Assembly: GCA_024650095.1 (NCBI GenBank)
Contig: JANKMV010000028.1
Coordinates: forward strand, 1-12,736
Length of the DNA stretch: 12,736 nt
DNA from: Bacillota bacterium
GTDB lineage: Bacteria > Bacillota > Dethiobacteria > Dethiobacterales > Dethiobacteraceae
Reading direction: 5' to 3'
This document shows positions 2,594 through 12,599 of the stretch, piece after piece; the first letter of the stretch is position 1; every line of letters starts with the position of its first letter. The position numbers were made by a program, and so were the translations under genes. Below the pieces are notes generated by a model. It was not told the origin of the DNA and did not search any database. It saw only the letters and a list, made by a program, of their open reading frames with translations.

Positions 2594-2618
2594 GGCCAGC
2601 CCTCAATGAAGGCTGGCC
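2594..2618 (-). terminator. Hairpin after the matrix locus, probable terminator
   Basis: Arms GGCCAGCC (2594-2601) and GGCTGGCC (2611-2618) form a perfect 8-bp GC-rich stem with a 9-nt loop, starting 11 nt past the stop of the last matrix gene. On the minus strand it is followed by T-rich sequence (TTGCTGATTGTTAATTTTTA) in place of a clean U run, so termination may be partial. It separates the matrix genes from the ABC-2 operon. Confidence 0.6.
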
Positions 2619-2629
2619 GTATCATCTAC

Positions 2630-3256
2630 CTAAATTTCTTTTACTTGGCTTCTTCTGCGCACAATGATACCGACAACGAAGATAATGACACCTGCGAGTA
2701 GTAAGATGGTATCAAAACCGCTAGTGGGGGGTGTTGGCGGAGCGGGAGGGGGTGCTCCCTCTTGAGTCGCAGTAAAGACCAGTTTAACCGCAAGTGTACT
2801 GCCCTGGTATTCATTACCCGTCTCGGGTCCAGGCAAGTGCACCGTAAAATCAAGGACCTGGTCTTTGTCTGCCTCAATTTCACCCAATCTATATTGGCTA
2901 AAGCCGCTCATGGGACCCTTATACATTTCGACTCCCTGGTGTGCAATGGTCATGACTAACTGATGGTAAAGATCACCCTCACCCGTGGTGCCATCGGTCT
3001 TGGCCATACTCACAAACGCCGTAAATGGTCCGTTAGCAACATTACGAATCGTCATGGACGCTTGCATGGTGTCGCCAGGGTTCATGTTTCTCACATTAAA
3101 CAGAGCCGTGTCGGAGGGCTCAATACGCAGGCCCAACTCGTCACCAACCAGCTCCAAAGCAAAGACAACCCCCGGTTCGGCCATCATTGCTATGCTGCTT
3201 ATGATGAGCATAATCCCCAAGATAATCGCGATAGAGCTGATGGTTTTCCTCTTCAT
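2630..3256 (-). CDS. TasA/CalY-like secreted protein with C-terminal membrane anchor
   Basis: A 208-residue exported protein. An N-terminal hydrophobic segment (about residues 6-26) precedes VFA-LE, a plausible type I cleavage site. The MAWFTDT motif of its neighbours is absent. The beta-rich ectodomain contains FNVRNMNPGDTMQASMTI (53-70), like the NPGD segment of the neighbouring TasA-like protein, and LPGPETGNEYQG (141-152), nearly identical to that protein's SGPNTGNEYQG. A proline-rich linker (about 168-178) leads to a hydrophobic helix (about 182-199) and RRR. This is the layout of a wall-sorting signal, but the motif position reads PPTSG and not LPxTG. A ribosome binding site AAGGAGG lies 6 nt from the ATG. 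It is probably co-transcribed with the TasA-like gene and may tether fibres to the cell; that role is inference. Confidence 0.8.
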   Translation of the reverse strand: MKRKTISSIAIILGIMLIISSIAMMAEPGVVFALELVGDELGLRIEPSDTALFNVRNMNPGDTMQASMTIRNVANGPFTAFVSMAKTDGTTGEGDLYHQLVMTIAHQGVEMYKGPMSGFSQYRLGEIEADKDQVLDFTVHLPGPETGNEYQGSTLAVKLVFTATQEGAPPPAPPTPPTSGFDTILLLAGVIIFVVGIIVRRRSQVKEI

Positions 3257-3376: not shown

Positions 3377-4051
3377 CTACTCTTCTATCAAAGCGTCATA
3401 AGCGGCTTGCAGTGCTTCCATTTCGGCAATGGCTTCTGCATCGGTTACGTCAGCAATTTCTGGCGTAGTGACCAAGGTCCTAGTGGTGGTGTCAGCGGTG
3501 TTAAGAGCATCCCAAGGTGCATTGTGAGAAAATTGCACTGCTTCGCCAACTGCACTTAGGTTAAATACTTCACCTTGGTATTCATTGCCCGTGTTAGGGC
3601 CACTCAATGTTACTTCCACGAGGAGGGGAACTGTATAAACTCCAGGAGAAATAGCATTACCGATAAAGGGGAACTTATAGTAGTAGTATCCATCCGCAGC
3701 ATTATATTGCCACCAAAATCGTAACGCTGAAGGAATGGATAGTTCTACATTATCGCTACTCAAATTTCTTGCTTCCCATGCTTTTTCGAGATTAACTCTT
3801 AATTTAAGTTTTTTGCTACCTACATTCTGAAATGCCACCCCTACTAAACTGGTGTCGCCGGGGTTCCAATTATTTTCATTAAAGCAAAGTGATAAATGTC
3901 CCATTCCAGTTGCCTCAAGTTGAACTGTGCCCGCCTGAAATACAGCAGGATCAGACTCAACTGTGTCGGTAAACCAAGCCATTGTTGCGCCCGCGATGAG
4001 GGCAACTGCCAGTGCCAGCACGAGCATACTCATTAGTACTCTTTTTTTCAT
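3377..4051 (-). CDS. TasA/CalY-like SipW-dependent matrix fibre protein
   Basis: A 224-residue secreted protein of the TasA/camelysin type, which in Bacillus forms the protein fibres of biofilm matrix. The N-terminus (residues 1-24) is a hydrophobic signal ending in the SipW-type motif GATMAWFTDT (21-30). It is followed by AGTVQLEATG, then NWNPGD (61-66), NVGSKKLKLRV (77-87) and GPNTGNEYQG (151-160), all expected positions for the TasA beta-sandwich. The C-terminal tail (about 190-224) is Thr-rich, then helical and acidic (AEMEALQAAYDALIEE). GGAGG lies 8 nt from the ATG. The gene sits 45 nt below a c-di-GMP-I aptamer, so c-di-GMP probably controls its expression. It is the best candidate for the major fibre subunit. 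An exact orthologue of tasA or calY is not claimed. Confidence 0.88.
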   Translation of the reverse strand: MKKRVLMSMLVLALAVALIAGATMAWFTDTVESDPAVFQAGTVQLEATGMGHLSLCFNENNWNPGDTSLVGVAFQNVGSKKLKLRVNLEKAWEARNLSSDNVELSIPSALRFWWQYNAADGYYYYKFPFIGNAISPGVYTVPLLVEVTLSGPNTGNEYQGEVFNLSAVGEAVQFSHNAPWDALNTADTTTRTLVTTPEIADVTDAEAIAEMEALQAAYDALIEE

Positions 4052-4095
4052 TGTTCATTCCTCCACTTCATCTCTTTTACTTTTTCAATAAACTC

Positions 4096-4166
4096 GCCGG
4101 CAACCCGGCTGCCTCCTTACGAGGTCCATGGCTTTGCGTCCCTATCTTGCGATAGGTTTGCCCTGA
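4096..4166 (-). promoter_or_regulatory. Cyclic di-GMP-I (GEMM) riboswitch
   Basis: The minus strand reads the GEMM-I consensus blocks in order: GGGCAAACC, a hairpin CTATC-GCAA-GATAG with a GNRA tetraloop, GGGACGCAAAGCC, a short second hairpin (CCTC/GAGG), and AGCCGGGTTGCCGG. The closing P1 stem pairs GGCAA (4158-4162) with TTGCC (4099-4103). In the family these segments form the c-di-GMP pocket and the tetraloop-receptor contact. The TasA-like start codon is 45 nt below the aptamer. No hairpin plus U run lies between them, so control of translation is more likely than termination; CCTC of the second hairpin could pair with the ribosome binding site. No good sigma-A promoter is visible in the 90 nt above, so the aptamer may be internal to a longer transcript. 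Whether ligand turns expression on or off is not readable. Confidence 0.95.
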
Positions 4167-4254
4167 ACGGCACCAACAAGGACACGACACGTAATGAATT
4201 TTGTAGTAGCTGTTTAACACCCTCTTTCTCGGAGCTAATAATAATGGCCATAAT

Positions 4255-5208
4255 CTATGGATGTGGCCAAATATCGCTGGCATGATGGGAGGCCTGGATG
4301 GCCTCGACTTCTAGATGTACAGTGTACGTTCCGCCGCTGGCGTTTTCTGGTAAATAGCCGGTGAGACAAAGGGTAATTTCACCCGTCGTTGCGATAGGTT
4401 GGCTGTGATACCACCAAGTCACGGTATGGTTATTAACAGTTTCTGGCTCTCCCTTAGCCCACATATAGGGGCACGAGTCTAAAGTATGCCAAGAGATATT
4501 GTTGATTGTGCTATCCGTCTGACAAGATACAACGGCGTGGGCAGCAAGCATGAGCGTTTGCCCCGCAGTATAGGAGCCGGGGATAACATAGGTATATTCA
4601 CTAACATAATTGTGTTGTTTTTTAAAGGGGAACTGACCCGGAGGTGGATTGCCATTGGCGTTTGTAGGGATATCGTCAACATCTGTAGCCACAGCAAGAT
4701 GAGTTTCCAGCAGTTTGTAGCCGGCTTTTAGTTTGTATTTCACATGAAGAGCGTTATCCTGCAGCCAGACTTCTACATCACCACAGTGATCGTGCTGACC
4801 GGCTAACAAACGTGTGCTTTGCTTGCCAGAGCCTACATTATAGGTGAAATACATAGCCCAGTTACCTTGCCCATCAGGGTTGAATGGTCGACCTTCTCCC
4901 CATGCTGTCTCGTCTTTTCTCTCCATGCCCACGACGGGCCTAGCTCGTAGCATTATTTTTTTGCTACCTATATTCTTAATTGTCCAAACAAAATTTTTAG
5001 TCGTACCCGGTGTCCAGGAGATGGTCGTGGGATTTTGGGGTTGTGGCGTAATTGTTGTTGGCAGGACGTCAAGATCAACCGTACCCGCTTTCATTGCAAG
5101 GGGTTCGGGGGTGGCCGTGTCTGTAAACCAAGCCATGGTCACACCACCAGAAAAAAGTATGATCGCGGAAATGAGTATGATCGTGCTCCGAATGACTCTG
5201 GCTCTCAT
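4255..5208 (-). CDS. SipW-dependent TasA-like protein with an inserted domain
   Basis: A 317-residue secreted protein. A hydrophobic N-terminus (residues 8-25) ends in GVTMAWFTDT (22-31), almost identical to the TasA-like neighbour, so it is a likely SipW substrate. AMKAGTVDLDV (38-48), SWTPGTTKNF and IKNIGSKKIMLRARP (77-91) match the first half of the TasA-like fold. Residues 131-228 look like a separate domain inserted in it, with LLAGQHDHCGDVEVW, LHVKYKL, LLETHLAVATDVDDIP, GNPPPGQFPF and YTYVIP. That pattern recurs in other bacterial secreted proteins, recognised from memory and with no known function. The last 50 residues (GEITLCLTGYLPENASGGTY onward) resume the sandwich. Cys142, Cys229, Cys246 and Cys281 could form disulfides. 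AAGGAAG lies 6 nt from the ATG. It could be a minor or capping fibre subunit (inference). Confidence 0.82.
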   Translation of the reverse strand: MRARVIRSTIILISAIILFSGGVTMAWFTDTATPEPLAMKAGTVDLDVLPTTITPQPQNPTTISWTPGTTKNFVWTIKNIGSKKIMLRARPVVGMERKDETAWGEGRPFNPDGQGNWAMYFTYNVGSGKQSTRLLAGQHDHCGDVEVWLQDNALHVKYKLKAGYKLLETHLAVATDVDDIPTNANGNPPPGQFPFKKQHNYVSEYTYVIPGSYTAGQTLMLAAHAVVSCQTDSTINNISWHTLDSCPYMWAKGEPETVNNHTVTWWYHSQPIATTGEITLCLTGYLPENASGGTYTVHLEVEAIQASHHASDIWPHP

Positions 5209-5972: not shown

Positions 5973-7175
5973 CTACTCCGCGGTTTCCTCGTCTATTTCC
6001 TCTATTACAGCGTCTTCTTCATCCTTAATGATGGTGGGTTCATCTTCCGGTATCGTCGGCTCTGTTTCAGGGATTACTTCTTCTTCCTCACTCAGTTGTT
6101 TTTCTGAAGGTTCCTGCTCTTGCACTTCTTCCATTATTAATGTTACGTCTAAGGTGCTAAAAACAAGTGGATTGGTCTTCGACGTTGCCACGATCACCAT
6201 AGAGCCAGGTAGAGCTTCGCTAGTTACCGTGACCTCGCCGCTTTCATTTATTGTTACTCCCACTATTTCCTCTGCCAGAGACCAGCTTACAGTTTCATGC
6301 TCCATATATTGCTCACCTTGATCACTAACAGCGGCTGTGTAGGTATATAGACAACTGATAGAATCTAACGCAGCATCCATCAAACTTGTGGGGATAAGCA
6401 CATTATTCAGGCCTTCTATTTGTAGTGATGTCACCACTGGCTGTTCTTCAGTTGTCGTAGCTTCCTCTAGCAATTCCGTTGCGACTGGGGAATCTTCCTT
6501 GAGTGGCTGGATCGGTTCGATTAGCCGTTCCTCAAAGAGAAGAACACCATCACCTGTAAACATAAAGTGATCAAGGCCACCCTTATACCCCTCACCCGTT
6601 ACAGCAAAGGAGATATTACCATCCCCAACCACGTCATTTAACCATCCCTGGATAACAGTTCGATCAAAAGCAACTCGTAAACTATTACCCTCTGTCAGTG
6701 CACCTCGAAGAGCTTTAGTCGCTTGCCCATTATGATGAAGTTGGAGAGAAGGGACAAAAATATCTCCGGTATCATAAGAGCCCTGTAGCTCTATGAGGGC
6801 CCAGATTTCTGTTTCTTCAGGAGAAATAAGCACTAGCTGCTCTTTCTCTGCGACCATCATCATCGGCGCTGTAGTGTCATCATTTGATACTACACTCTCA
6901 GCGATCCTTTCAATAATGAATGGATCCTCAAACAACATATTTGCATCTGCATCAGCGACCCCCAGCTTAGTAACTTTTAGAATTACCTTAGCGCTATGAT
7001 CTTGCGCTGTGAAGAATGCCTCTGTGAAGGGGATTCTAATGAGAGAAAACAACATAAGTATAATCATGAAAGTAACAACTGGCTTTGTAATCAACCTTTT
7101 TAGTACGATCACCACCATCTCTTTTGTTCCCTTCGTAGGCCCCTGATGAGACAGTTGATGCTCATGTTTTAGCAT
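5973..7175 (-). CDS. Secreted protein with BIG2-like domain and acidic tail
   Basis: A 400-residue exported protein heading the matrix locus. A long polar N-region (30 residues) precedes a hydrophobic segment (about 32-48) and TEAFFTAQDHSAK (51-63). That resembles a diverged SipW-type cleavage region (compare AWFTDT), so it may be a SipW client. Residues 63-220 are beta-rich and unassigned. Residues about 248-346 fit a bacterial Ig-like group 2 domain: SLQIEGLNNVLIP, YTAAVSDQG, ETVSWSL, GVTINESGEVTV. The last 50 residues are strongly acidic with Pro-Glu/Pro-Thr repeats (ETEPTIPEDEPTI) and carry no membrane anchor. The start at 7175 is chosen because AAGGGGGAG lies 6 nt upstream; an in-frame start 13 codons earlier lacks such a site. 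An adhesin or accessory matrix role is inferred. Confidence 0.75.
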   Translation of the reverse strand: MLKHEHQLSHQGPTKGTKEMVVIVLKRLITKPVVTFMIILMLFSLIRIPFTEAFFTAQDHSAKVILKVTKLGVADADANMLFEDPFIIERIAESVVSNDDTTAPMMMVAEKEQLVLISPEETEIWALIELQGSYDTGDIFVPSLQLHHNGQATKALRGALTEGNSLRVAFDRTVIQGWLNDVVGDGNISFAVTGEGYKGGLDHFMFTGDGVLLFEERLIEPIQPLKEDSPVATELLEEATTTEEQPVVTSLQIEGLNNVLIPTSLMDAALDSISCLYTYTAAVSDQGEQYMEHETVSWSLAEEIVGVTINESGEVTVTSEALPGSMVIVATSKTNPLVFSTLDVTLIMEEVQEQEPSEKQLSEEEEVIPETEPTIPEDEPTIIKDEEDAVIEEIDEETAE

Positions 7176-7214
7176 AGATGGCTCCCCCTTCCTACATGTC
7201 CTTACCATTGTCAT

Positions 7215-9742: not shown

Positions 9743-10419
9743 GAGGGTACCACCTTCTCTTCCACGATTTCCCCATCATGAATGCGCACATAACGTTGTG
9801 ATTGCATGGCAATATCCATATCATGGGTAATAAGAACTATGGTTTTGCCCTCGCTGTGCAGTTTCTGGAGTAGCGTCATTACCTCTTTGCCGGAAGTGGA
9901 ATCCAAATTTCCAGTAGGTTCATCCGCCAGAATCAAGGGAGGGTTGCCCACTAGAGCACGCGCGATGGCCACTCTCTGTTGTTGGCCGCCGGATAGTTGG
10001 GTGGGACGATGCCCGATGCGATCGCCGAGGCCAACGTTTTCCAAGGCAGACAAGGCAGTTTCCTGCCGCTCACGTCCACCCATACCCCGATAGATCAGGG
10101 GAAGCTCCACATTCTCTAATGCGGAAAGCCGGGGTAACAAATTAAAACTTTGAAAGACAAAGCCAATGAGTTGGTTGCGAATTTCGGCTAATCTATTATC
10201 GGACAAACTGCTTACTTCATGTCCATTTAGCAGATAACAGCCTGCTGTGGGCGTATCTAAACAGCCGATAATATTCATGAGGGTAGATTTGCCAGAACCC
10301 GACGGACCGATTACGGAAAGAAAATCGCCCTTGGCTACGGTCATGTTTATACCACGAAGAGCATGAACCTCCACACCCTCTAGCTTATATAGTTTTGAGA
10401 TGTTCTCTGTGAGGATCAT
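9739..10419 (-). CDS. MacB/LolD-type ABC ATPase
   Basis: A 226-residue ATPase that drives the adjacent FtsX-type permease. All motifs are intact: Walker A GPSGSGKST (38-46), Q-loop FVFQSFNLLP (Gln90), signature LSGGQQQR (142-149), Walker B LILADEP (162-168), D-loop NLD and switch His199 in LITHD. The length and the LYKLEGVEVHALRGI opening are typical of the MacB/LolD/FtsE group, whose cycle performs mechanotransmission and not classical channel transport. The start overlaps the end of the fusion-protein gene as ATGA, and its own stop overlaps the permease start in the same way, so the three subunits are translationally coupled. Confidence 0.95.
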   Translation of the reverse strand: MILTENISKLYKLEGVEVHALRGINMTVAKGDFLSVIGPSGSGKSTLMNIIGCLDTPTAGCYLLNGHEVSSLSDNRLAEIRNQLIGFVFQSFNLLPRLSALENVELPLIYRGMGGRERQETALSALENVGLGDRIGHRPTQLSGGQQQRVAIARALVGNPPLILADEPTGNLDSTSGKEVMTLLQKLHSEGKTIVLITHDMDIAMQSQRYVRIHDGEIVEEKVVPS

Positions 10420-11990
10420 CTGCCAAAGCCCCTTGGCATACCACCAAAGATGCCACTGTTGTTGGCATCGCTGGCAATCAGCAGTTCTTGCCCTTCCATC
10501 AAACCAGAGACCACTTCGATGTGGGTGGTATCATATACCCCCGTTTGCACTTGTATCTCTTCTGCACTGCCATTGCCCGTTGGCGCAAGGACAACCATGG
10601 TTTTACCATCACTCTCATGAATCGTTTCAATGGGAATAAGCAGAATCTCTTTGCGGCTATCCACTAAAATATCGGCACTGACAGTCATGCCCACCTTTAG
10701 ATTCGCTGTATCCGTTATGACAATGGTGACATCGAAGGTGGAAACACCCCCTTGACCAATGCCTTCATGCGCAATATTCTTCACTTCTCCCTGCATCACT
10801 TTATCATCTAGTGCGTCCGCTGTGACCGTGACAACTTGACCAGGCTTCACTTTTGCCACATCAAGCTCATCTACCGGAATCACAACTTCTAAGCGAGAGT
10901 AGTCGATAATGGTCGCTAGGAGGGTACCTAAATTTACGTCATCCCCCACGGCTAGCATAGGTTGCGGTAAGACAATGGTACCACCAATGGGTGCTGTAAC
11001 GTTGCTATTGGCAAGGCGATCCTTTTGCTGATCTTGTAAGGATGATAAATCGAGTTTTGCTTGCTTTAAACGCAGTTCTGCGTTGGCTATCTGTGTCGCC
11101 AATTGTTCCGCTCGCTGATCATCATTTATCTCAGCCAAGACATCGCTGGGAGCCACCATGGTGCCACTCGTTATTTTTACAGTTTCTATGACGCCAGCAA
11201 TAGTAGCCCGTATGACCACAGCATCTGGATATGCTAGCGTCACAGGAGAAACCGCTATTAGCTCTTGTTCAGCCGTCTCTATGGTCACATCTCCCTGCAT
11301 ATCTTGATCTAGAGCGCCGTTATTGGGGATTTCAACCACTACGTCATATTCTACACTACCGTCCCCACCACTACGGGGAATGTTACCTACAGATAAAACA
11401 GTGCCTGCATAGAGAGTGGAGTGACCTGCCACATCCACACGAACCGATTGACCTGTAGCAACGAGGTCAATCTCGTCGGCATGAAAACGCCCTCTGGCCA
11501 AAATGCGTGTGCGTTCTTGTATTGTGGCAATTGGCATATTCTCCTGCACACGGTCTCCTTCTTGAGCCTGCCAAAGCAGTTCGCCTTGTTGGGGAGCTAT
11601 AATGGTAGCGCTTGTTTTTTGTTTCTGTAGAGCGCTTACCTCCCGCTCCTGCAGACTAATATCTAACTTCTTACTTTGTACTTGTGTTGCTATATCCTGC
11701 ACCTCTAGACGTACGACTAAGTCACCCGCGGCGACTGTCTGCCCTTCGGCAAGATCTACGACGGTTAGAGTACCCGCGGCGCTAGTCCGGAGCTCTTCCC
11801 GCGCTGTGGCAGCAACGGTACCTGTACCTGAAACTCTCACGTCTAGATCTCCGCGCACCACAGTGGCTGTCATACCCGCAGGCAGTTGGGCCGCTGTACG
11901 ACGAGCTCGTACCCCACGCAATATGGTAAAGAAAAAAAGCAGTATGATAACACTACCCACAGCAAACAAAAGCCATTTTTTATTCTTCAT
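10416..11990 (-). CDS. Membrane-fusion (HlyD/MacA-type) efflux protein, double module
   Basis: A 524-residue adaptor anchored by one N-terminal helix (about 6-24), with the rest outside the membrane. The first module (about 44-249) has a lipoyl-like segment (SAAGTLTVVDLAEGQTVAAG), a short coiled coil, the partner half (IIAPQQGELLWQAQEGDRV) and a beta-barrel. A second module (about 256-524) repeats this with TIAGVIETVKITSGTMVAP, a coiled coil (about 288-328), VTAPIGGTIVLPQPMLAVGDDV, a beta-barrel and the membrane-proximal domain. The usual family length is about 350-420, so it carries an extra unit. The end IFGGMPRGFGR is typical of MacA-like adaptors. The ATG at 11990 is preferred over a TTG six codons earlier because GGGGGGA sits 7 nt upstream. 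The stop overlaps the ATPase start. Confidence 0.88.
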   Translation of the reverse strand: MKNKKWLLFAVGSVIILLFFFTILRGVRARRTAAQLPAGMTATVVRGDLDVRVSGTGTVAATAREELRTSAAGTLTVVDLAEGQTVAAGDLVVRLEVQDIATQVQSKKLDISLQEREVSALQKQKTSATIIAPQQGELLWQAQEGDRVQENMPIATIQERTRILARGRFHADEIDLVATGQSVRVDVAGHSTLYAGTVLSVGNIPRSGGDGSVEYDVVVEIPNNGALDQDMQGDVTIETAEQELIAVSPVTLAYPDAVVIRATIAGVIETVKITSGTMVAPSDVLAEINDDQRAEQLATQIANAELRLKQAKLDLSSLQDQQKDRLANSNVTAPIGGTIVLPQPMLAVGDDVNLGTLLATIIDYSRLEVVIPVDELDVAKVKPGQVVTVTADALDDKVMQGEVKNIAHEGIGQGGVSTFDVTIVITDTANLKVGMTVSADILVDSRKEILLIPIETIHESDGKTMVVLAPTGNGSAEEIQVQTGVYDTTHIEVVSGLMEGQELLIASDANNSGIFGGMPRGFGR

Positions 11991-12014: not shown

Positions 12015-12599
12015 TTATAGACCGTGTAGTGTAATACCTTGTAAAACAAATTGCAATAATTCCCCAATGACCTTGCCCTGGTTATCGTGCGGCCAATAGA
12101 TATCGCCTACACTAAAATTCTGAATCACGGCCATAATGGCGGTGGCGATAATTTGGGTGTTATGTGGGCGGAACTCCCCACATTTAATCCCATCTGTGAG
12201 AACATCTATATAGCATGCTTGTACGCGCTCGATGGCTCTCATGACAACCAATGGAGGCCCAGCTACTGGACGTCGAAATATGCCTGGTTCAGTCGAAAAC
12301 AGTCGTTGCAAAAGTAACATCTTTCCCCGTACCATCTCATAGTGCACCTCAACCATGGCTGTTAAACGATCAAAACTTGTTCCAGTGCTAGAGACAGCCG
12401 TTTGGTGCATAACGTCTGAAATCTCCTCAATACTCGCTATAAATGTTTGCATGATTAACTCTTGTTTACTTTCAAAGTAGAGGTATACAGTACCTTTAGC
12501 AACACCTGCCACTACCGCCACCTTATCCATGGTTATTTTGTGACCTTCTTCCAGTAAGTGCCGGCAAGCCAATAATATAGCCAAGCGCTTATCTTCCAA
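12015..12599 (-). CDS. TetR-family transcriptional repressor of the efflux operon
   Basis: A regulator of about 194 residues. The N-terminal DNA-binding domain contains the TetR helix-turn-helix (about residues 24-43, TMDKVAVVAGVAKGTVYLYF) followed by the usual ESKQEL. The C-terminal two-thirds should bind an inducer and dimerise. It has no clear family signature, so the ligand is unknown. The start is placed at TTG 12599, which has GGAGGGGG 5 nt upstream; a GTG five codons earlier (12614) keeps the same frame but would place that site inside the gene. The gene leads the efflux operon, 24 nt above the fusion-protein ATG, and a 30-bp palindrome covers its own transcription start, so autoregulation and control of the pump are likely. 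Confidence 0.9.
   Translation of the reverse strand: MEDKRLAILLACRHLLEEGHKITMDKVAVVAGVAKGTVYLYFESKQELIMQTFIASIEEISDVMHQTAVSSTGTSFDRLTAMVEVHYEMVRGKMLLLQRLFSTEPGIFRRPVAGPPLVVMRAIERVQACYIDVLTDGIKCGEFRPHNTQIIATAIMAVIQNFSVGDIYWPHDNQGKVIGELLQFVLQGITLHGL

Follow-up and report, generated by a model that had tools for sequence, protein, structure and literature searches.

Validation is reported for only a small fraction of the c-di-GMP riboswitches, and rarely in the native context (PMC6366702). Among the described examples, Bc2 of Bacillus thuringiensis is a c-di-GMP-I riboswitch found before the collagen adhesion gene cap/cbpA (PMC4933901, PMC7423583, PMC6366702), whilst C. difficile is described as having the class I switch Cd1 before flgB and the class II switch Cdi-2-4 before pilA1 (PMC6366702, PMC8470499). 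Vc2 is given as a translational class I switch (PMC9262584), and the two class I switches of V. cholerae are reported to act without termination and to respond in opposite directions (PMC6366702). The direction of response varies in class I, with Bc2 an ON switch and the C. difficile examples OFF (PMC6366702). Two operons encoding SipW-type signal peptidases and their substrates are described as being controlled at the promoter, by SinR in the case of tapA-sipW-tasA in Bacillus subtilis (PMC4879592) and by the BsaRS two-component system in the case of sipW-bsaABCRSD in Clostridium perfringens (PMC7395162). The locus analysed here, from an anaerobic bacterium, has a c-di-GMP-I aptamer in the middle of such an operon, directly ahead of the gene for a secreted, putatively matrix-forming fibre protein.

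The aptamer and its operon

The window is a 12,736 nt stretch of contig JANKMV010000028.1, the coordinates of which count from its first letter. On the minus strand, the order is the 413-aa gene, sipW, the 317-aa gene, the aptamer, the 224-aa fibre gene and the 208-aa gene, as follows:

5973..7214, minus strand: 413-aa protein, first gene of the run; phmmer relatives lie ahead of sipW in loci L187, L188 and L189
5274..5939, minus strand: SipW-type signal peptidase, 221 aa (TIGR02228, 127.9 bits, cut-off 51.85)
4255..5208, minus strand: TasA-related protein, 317 aa, with a SipW-type signal, upstream of the riboswitch (TIGR04088, 19.2 bits, cut-off 19)
4172..4254, minus strand: 83 nt gap from the upstream stop codon to the aptamer, with no sigma-70-like site on this strand
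4095..4171, minus strand: c-di-GMP-I (GEMM-I, -GGC type) riboswitch aptamer, 77 nt (RF03167 and RF01051 matches)
4052..4094, minus strand: linker from aptamer to fibre gene (expression platform), with no U-run terminator
3377..4051, minus strand: TasA/camelysin-like fibre protein, 224 aa, with a SipW-dependent-type signal peptide (PF12389 and TIGR04088)
2630..3256, minus strand: TasA-related protein, 208 aa, with a hydrophobic C-terminus (anchored-type partner; PF12389, 26.4 bits, cut-off 22.5)
2594..2618, minus strand: strong hairpin after the 208-aa gene (z -4.70), with no U-run directly behind it

When the whole window was searched with cmscan, the RF03167 (c-di-GMP-I-GGC) model was matched completely, from 1 to 80, at 4171-4095 on the minus strand (62.5 bits, gathering cut-off 59, E value 4.5e-13); the remaining two matches fell far under their respective cut-offs. 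A search of the organism's own genome with RF01051 (c-di-GMP-I) scored the same aptamer at 63.6 bits, where the gathering cut-off is 35. The aptamer starts 83 nt past the stop codon of the 317-aa gene and ends 43 nt ahead of the TasA-like gene, with sipW further upstream. A preliminary description of this DNA, which had placed a GEMM-I aptamer on the minus strand between these two genes and suggested a covariance-model search, is borne out by scores above the gathering cut-offs of both families. The range it gave, 4052-4254, is correct as to location but spans the entire intergenic stretch, of which the aptamer proper occupies 77 nt.

In an alignment of 41 GEMM-I sequences (32 fibre-linked and nine not), which leans towards the structure because it was fitted to it, 97.4% of cells were paired, both-side changes occurred in 13 of the 16 pairs, and the P2 and P3 helices were kept; none of 500 shuffles was as high on any measure. 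The window aptamer has a GCAA P2 loop and keeps the J2/3 motif GCAAAG. Plain folding of the 82 nt aptamer stretch alone gave a stability mildly greater than that of shuffled sequences (z -1.66, with 13 of 200 shuffles as good), and the full ligand-bound form was absent from its lowest-energy fold. The window aptamer is a genuine member of the c-di-GMP-I family, and is predicted to bind c-di-GMP.

In the numbering that we take to apply to this aptamer and its relatives, the window has a G at position 20, as do 29 of the 32 fibre-linked rows. An A, as in cGAMP-type variants, is found in L190:1965-2058, L160:8256-8347 and L168:2861-2951, the last of these aptamers being otherwise degenerate. The base at this position distinguishes a preference for c-di-GMP from one for cGAMP within the class, the G20A variant being described as going with cGAMP (PMC6274999). 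As the window's own genome has ten GGDEF matches over cut-off, c-di-GMP is very likely made by the host. Four GEMM-I, including a weak one (31.9 bits with RF03167, 49.9 with RF01051), occur in the same genome, and one of the four precedes a FlgB-like gene, so labelled from its N-terminal 69 residues, which score 53.9 bits with TIGR01396, the cut-off of 59.05 applying to the full protein. GEMM-I aptamers are also found ahead of flgB-like genes in the family (e.g. G000:C111:5109-5196); in 12 of 15 FlgB-like leaders, flagged by motif, a terminator reaches at least -8 kcal/mol in stability, and that of the window genome's own leader is weaker, at -5.9. One messenger may thus set flagella and fibres through different platforms.

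Of the encoded proteins, that of 413 aa had no family match in Pfam or NCBIfam. The 221-aa protein lies over the cut-off of the SipW-type (archaeal/ER-type) signal peptidase family TIGR02228 and misses, at 140.4 bits, the cut-off of 190 for the Bacillus SipW equivalog NF046067; judged by these scores, it is a relative that falls outside the Bacillus equivalog. The 317-aa protein, which reached 22.1 bits with TIGR04088 in the class-wide search, resembles the 224-aa protein (phmmer, 1e-13). The latter scored 43.8 bits with PF12389 (cut-off 22.5) and 36.6 bits with TIGR04088 (cut-off 19), and since it falls under the cut-offs of both the B. subtilis TasA equivalog NF046066 (31.7 vs 450) and the BsaA family TIGR04090 (29.4 vs 60), it is called TasA-like, not TasA. 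It is a putative fibre former, and no relative in the PDB was found by sequence. The 208-aa protein, the anchor of which was judged by eye, is encoded 120 nt beyond the fibre gene, and its relatives sit after the fibre gene in many loci. The hairpin that follows is a possible end of the operon.

Distribution of the layout

The order, as sampled, consists of one family of 19 genomes, 18 of which contain RF03167 matches (68 in total). True SipW, defined by an E value below 1e-40, is present in ten, and GEMM-I was found at all ten loci, directly ahead of a TasA-like gene in eight. At a ninth, in G001, the contig stops four codons into the gene after the aptamer; the exception is G015, where GEMM-I lies almost 5 kb downstream of sipW, past the fibre and anchored-type genes and ahead of a gene for a 762-aa protein. 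In three genomes of one genus (G006, G007 and G008), sipW, aptamer and fibre gene follow one another with no intervening gene, whilst the order is sipW, accessory gene and aptamer in G000, G001, G010, G014, G017 and G018.

In the class, TIGR04088 matched in 34 of 96 genomes, of which nine belong to the family. The 25 genomes outside it have 27 loci, all of which were scanned for GEMM-I; nine genomes (G021, G042, G046, G048, G053, G059, G066, G082 and G084) have it directly before a SipW-dependent gene, G059 marginally so (37.6 bits vs 35). Together with the family's eight, this gives 17 of the 34 class genomes with a SipW-dependent gene; in the other 17 the aptamer was absent from that place, short contigs perhaps being the cause in some. 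The wider reach was assessed with an aptamer-derived model and through a protein scan of named genomes (46 loci), the shares from which are biased as riboswitch-linked proteins supplied its query. By these means the layout was found in Tissierella creatinophila DSM 6911, a Tissierella MAG, Alkaliphilus pronyensis, A. serpentinus and several Clostridia or Bacillota MAGs; each Alkaliphilus has two fibre genes and two aptamers, one per gene. With the aptamer-derived model, nothing significant was found at the loci of Alkalibaculum, Caproiciproducens and Anaeromassilibacillus. In a less biased survey, an even sample of 398 Bacillota genomes, TIGR04088 was found in 50, at least nine of which (G000, G007, G017, G046, G180, G203, G245, G398 and G436) have GEMM-I no more than about 250 nt upstream of a SipW-dependent gene, as judged from aptamer and TIGR04088 lists joined by eye, with stricter filters on the former.

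Hence the aptamer recurs above TasA-like genes, as the preliminary description had thought worth surveying, at eight of ten family sipW loci and in 17 of 34 class genomes with TIGR04088, and the position to which it had drawn attention, behind sipW and immediately ahead of the fibre gene, is conserved in several families. As many related genomes share this layout, fibre production is probably under the direct control of c-di-GMP, the cell's 'settle down' signal.

Other arrangements were also observed near sipW loci. In a further family, three genomes (G267, G426 and G464; loci L248, L250 and L249, respectively) have one or two GEMM-I, some in tandem, 0.3 to 1.5 kb upstream of sipW, and thus ahead of sipW itself, not of the fibre gene. 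Downstream of the fibre gene or operon, tandem pairs of GEMM-I precede a gene for a secreted protein of ~265-298 aa at L203:8737-9056, L223:6354-6684, L201:7346-7616 and L243 10284-10624 (reverse strand coordinates). Locus L187 has two classes of c-di-GMP aptamer: besides the GEMM-I of its sipW operon, a c-di-GMP-II aptamer is found at L187:11757-11839 on the minus strand (G017:C32; RF01786, 58.1 bits, cut-off 53.5); downstream of it, a BTAD regulator gene follows after about 0.7 kb and sipW after about 3 kb. Regulator genes encoding 398-418 aa lie upstream of sipW; the L187 copy (9846-11084, minus strand) has a BTAD domain (PF03704, 73.8 bits), and counterparts matched by eye, from a similar start, are found in L191, L192, L193, L160, L173, L199, L203 and L213. 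In L162 and L173, a response-regulator receiver is fused to a SipW-type signal peptidase in a single protein of 668-691 aa (L162:6128-8200, G042:C80, and L173:12376-14379, G046:C37, both on the plus strand), with PF00072 scores of 60.3 and 35.5 bits and, in the C-terminal part, NF046067 scores of 145.5 and 152.7 bits. A weak GEMM-I match (12231-12331, 34.1 bits with R1) lies directly ahead of the L173 fusion.

The linker and the level of control

We consider it probable that this intra-operon c-di-GMP-I riboswitch sets the output of the TasA-like fibre subunit post-transcriptionally. The sipW operon would be transcribed from upstream, giving an mRNA that carries the aptamer between the 317-aa and fibre genes; binding of c-di-GMP would then shift ribosome access to the Shine-Dalgarno sequence, a GGAGG at 4064-4060, about 30 nt behind the aptamer. 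Fibre synthesis would track c-di-GMP, with the peptidase and accessory protein made independently. We infer a single read-through transcript across the aptamer, with translation as the level of control.

A uniform scan for intrinsic terminators (-8 kcal/mol or better, within 100 nt) detected none in the 32 fibre-linked leaders, against 47 of the 65 other GEMM-I leaders (57 from the family and eight from wider loci). The fibre-linked set was chosen by the closeness of a start codon to the aptamer, which disfavours long leaders, and the scan left out the rows G003:C232, with no region to search, and G003:C204, at a contig end. A looser scan (-6 kcal/mol, 150 nt) detected two of 32, both past the start codon, against 52 of 65. 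An intrinsic-terminator platform was therefore rejected for the fibre-linked set. The upstream stop codon lies 0-21 nt from the aptamer in eight leaders (four aptamers of the two Alkaliphilus, two from Tissierella and two from MAGs) and 27-340 nt in 24, these stops having been found mechanically as the ends of open frames of at least 85 codons, some of which may not end real genes. In Tissierella creatinophila and the two Alkaliphilus the aptamer starts 0-10 nt past the stop codon, so that a promoter would not fit in between. In the window, a scan for sigma-70-like sites found none on the minus strand of the 83 nt gap, and an own sigma-70 promoter there was dropped as a candidate. The start codon follows the aptamer by 20-68 nt in 30 automatic measurements and by 19 nt and 20 nt in the remaining two leaders, and each of the 32 has a purine-rich Shine-Dalgarno sequence of the GGAGG or GGAGT type. 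These terminator counts and leader distances are best read as a terminator-free switch between genes that most likely acts on translation.

It had been proposed that c-di-GMP would set the fibre subunit and its anchored partner separately from the peptidase. Separation from the peptidase is favoured by the eight aptamers 0-21 nt past a stop codon and by the gap's lack of a sigma-70-like site. However, with no terminator found, the switch is likely to act on how the fibre gene is translated, and hence the anchored-type partner, 120 nt on, would be affected only indirectly.

Folding suggested the direction of the response only weakly. The Shine-Dalgarno sequence was less open in the free fold than with the aptamer set aside in 23 of 31 leaders (Wilcoxon p 0.0007, a value that overstates independence, as the rows are mutually related); L194, the gene of which is cut by a contig end, was in the terminator scan and out of this folding. 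However, across the 31 leaders, pairing with the aptamer did not exceed that in either of two controls (flanks shuffled, p 0.06; aptamer shuffled, p 0.37), so masking by the aptamer is unsupported beyond chance. In the window itself the Shine-Dalgarno sequence is predicted to be open in either state (0.95 with the aptamer, 0.99 when it is set aside; 0.73 in the free fold with a longer upstream flank). Judged by eye, and in the window and L189 only, the start of the linker might pair with the spacer that separates the Shine-Dalgarno sequence from the start codon. The direction therefore rests on prior knowledge: an ON switch is more likely, because c-di-GMP is described as usually favouring adherence and matrix (PMC6366702). 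The converse, in which c-di-GMP lowers fibre synthesis, for instance by a ligand-stabilised P1 beside the Shine-Dalgarno sequence hindering the ribosome, we regard as fairly unlikely. Such proximity is found in L168, L172 and L161, where only 5-13 nt separate the two, and the C. difficile class I switches are OFF (PMC6366702); against it stand the usual effect of the messenger, the ON response of Bc2 ahead of an adhesin gene and the hint, unconfirmed by the controls, from the 23 leaders.

It is rather unlikely that the riboswitch instead controls transcription into the fibre gene, through an unrecognised intrinsic terminator, Rho or a promoter of its own in the gap, so that the fibre gene and its anchored-type partner would respond as a unit. 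Terminators are common in the other GEMM-I leaders of these genomes, and a GC-rich hairpin with a poor U-tail over the 3' end of the aptamer (4109-4096), listed as terminator-like, forms in the free fold. However, its tail is not a proper U-run, there is none in the nearest relative, L189, no fibre-linked leader passes the terminator scan, and several relatives have the aptamer right next to the stop codon upstream. That the aptamer has decayed and has no present function is very improbable: it scores only 3.5 bits above the RF03167 cut-off and has degenerate relatives such as L168 (37.6 bits vs 35), but place and pairing are conserved across distant families, and the window keeps both the G at position 20 and the J2/3 motif. 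A chance match, with a negligible probability, was rejected on the cmscan E value, the recurrence at the same place and the covariation.

The translational reading of the window may extend further, though this is tentative. In several lineages of Bacillota, one polycistronic sipW mRNA could contain between-gene riboswitches through which c-di-GMP sets the translation of individual fibre subunits, such that the amount and composition of the fibres would be set relative to the peptidase and accessory protein; another cyclic dinucleotide is possible in the few relatives with an A at position 20.

Comparison with described systems

Like the B. subtilis and C. perfringens operons, as described, this locus keeps a SipW-type peptidase together with SipW-dependent fibre proteins. 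Those operons are promoter-controlled, and the parts of their accounts used here mention no c-di-GMP riboswitch, whereas here an aptamer lies between the genes. A keyword search of the open-access literature found no link between c-di-GMP riboswitches and sipW or tasA; texts naming riboswitches and either TasA or SipW treat them apart, in the portions consulted. Hence, whilst the aptamer class and the type of operon are both known, their recurrent combination, the between-gene place and the terminator-free platform are apparently undescribed.

The resemblance to Bc2 lies in a class I aptamer in a Gram-positive host with a surface or adhesion gene directly behind; however, Bc2 is described at the 5' end of its gene's own mRNA, where it is ON by transcription read-through, whereas the present aptamer is terminator-free and lies between genes of a sipW operon. 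In C. difficile, one messenger acts on both motility and surface filaments via RNA; the genome studied here likewise has a GEMM-I before a flgB-like gene. Unlike the switch proposed here, Cd1 and Cdi-2-4 act through transcription termination according to the accounts used, and the C. difficile filament is a type IV pilus with a class II aptamer. Vc2 differs in its Gram-negative host and in its target gene, and we know of no case of it between the genes of an operon. It shares with the present aptamer the combination of class I and the lack of a terminator (PMC9262584, PMC6366702).

The recurrence of the aptamer before SipW-dependent fibre genes offers a testable direct route from c-di-GMP to the protein matrix in Gram-positives, and the cultured Tissierella creatinophila, Alkaliphilus pronyensis and A. 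serpentinus make the layout open to experiment. It also presents a terminator-free, between-gene platform, in contrast to the terminators carried by most other representatives of this riboswitch class in the genomes studied.
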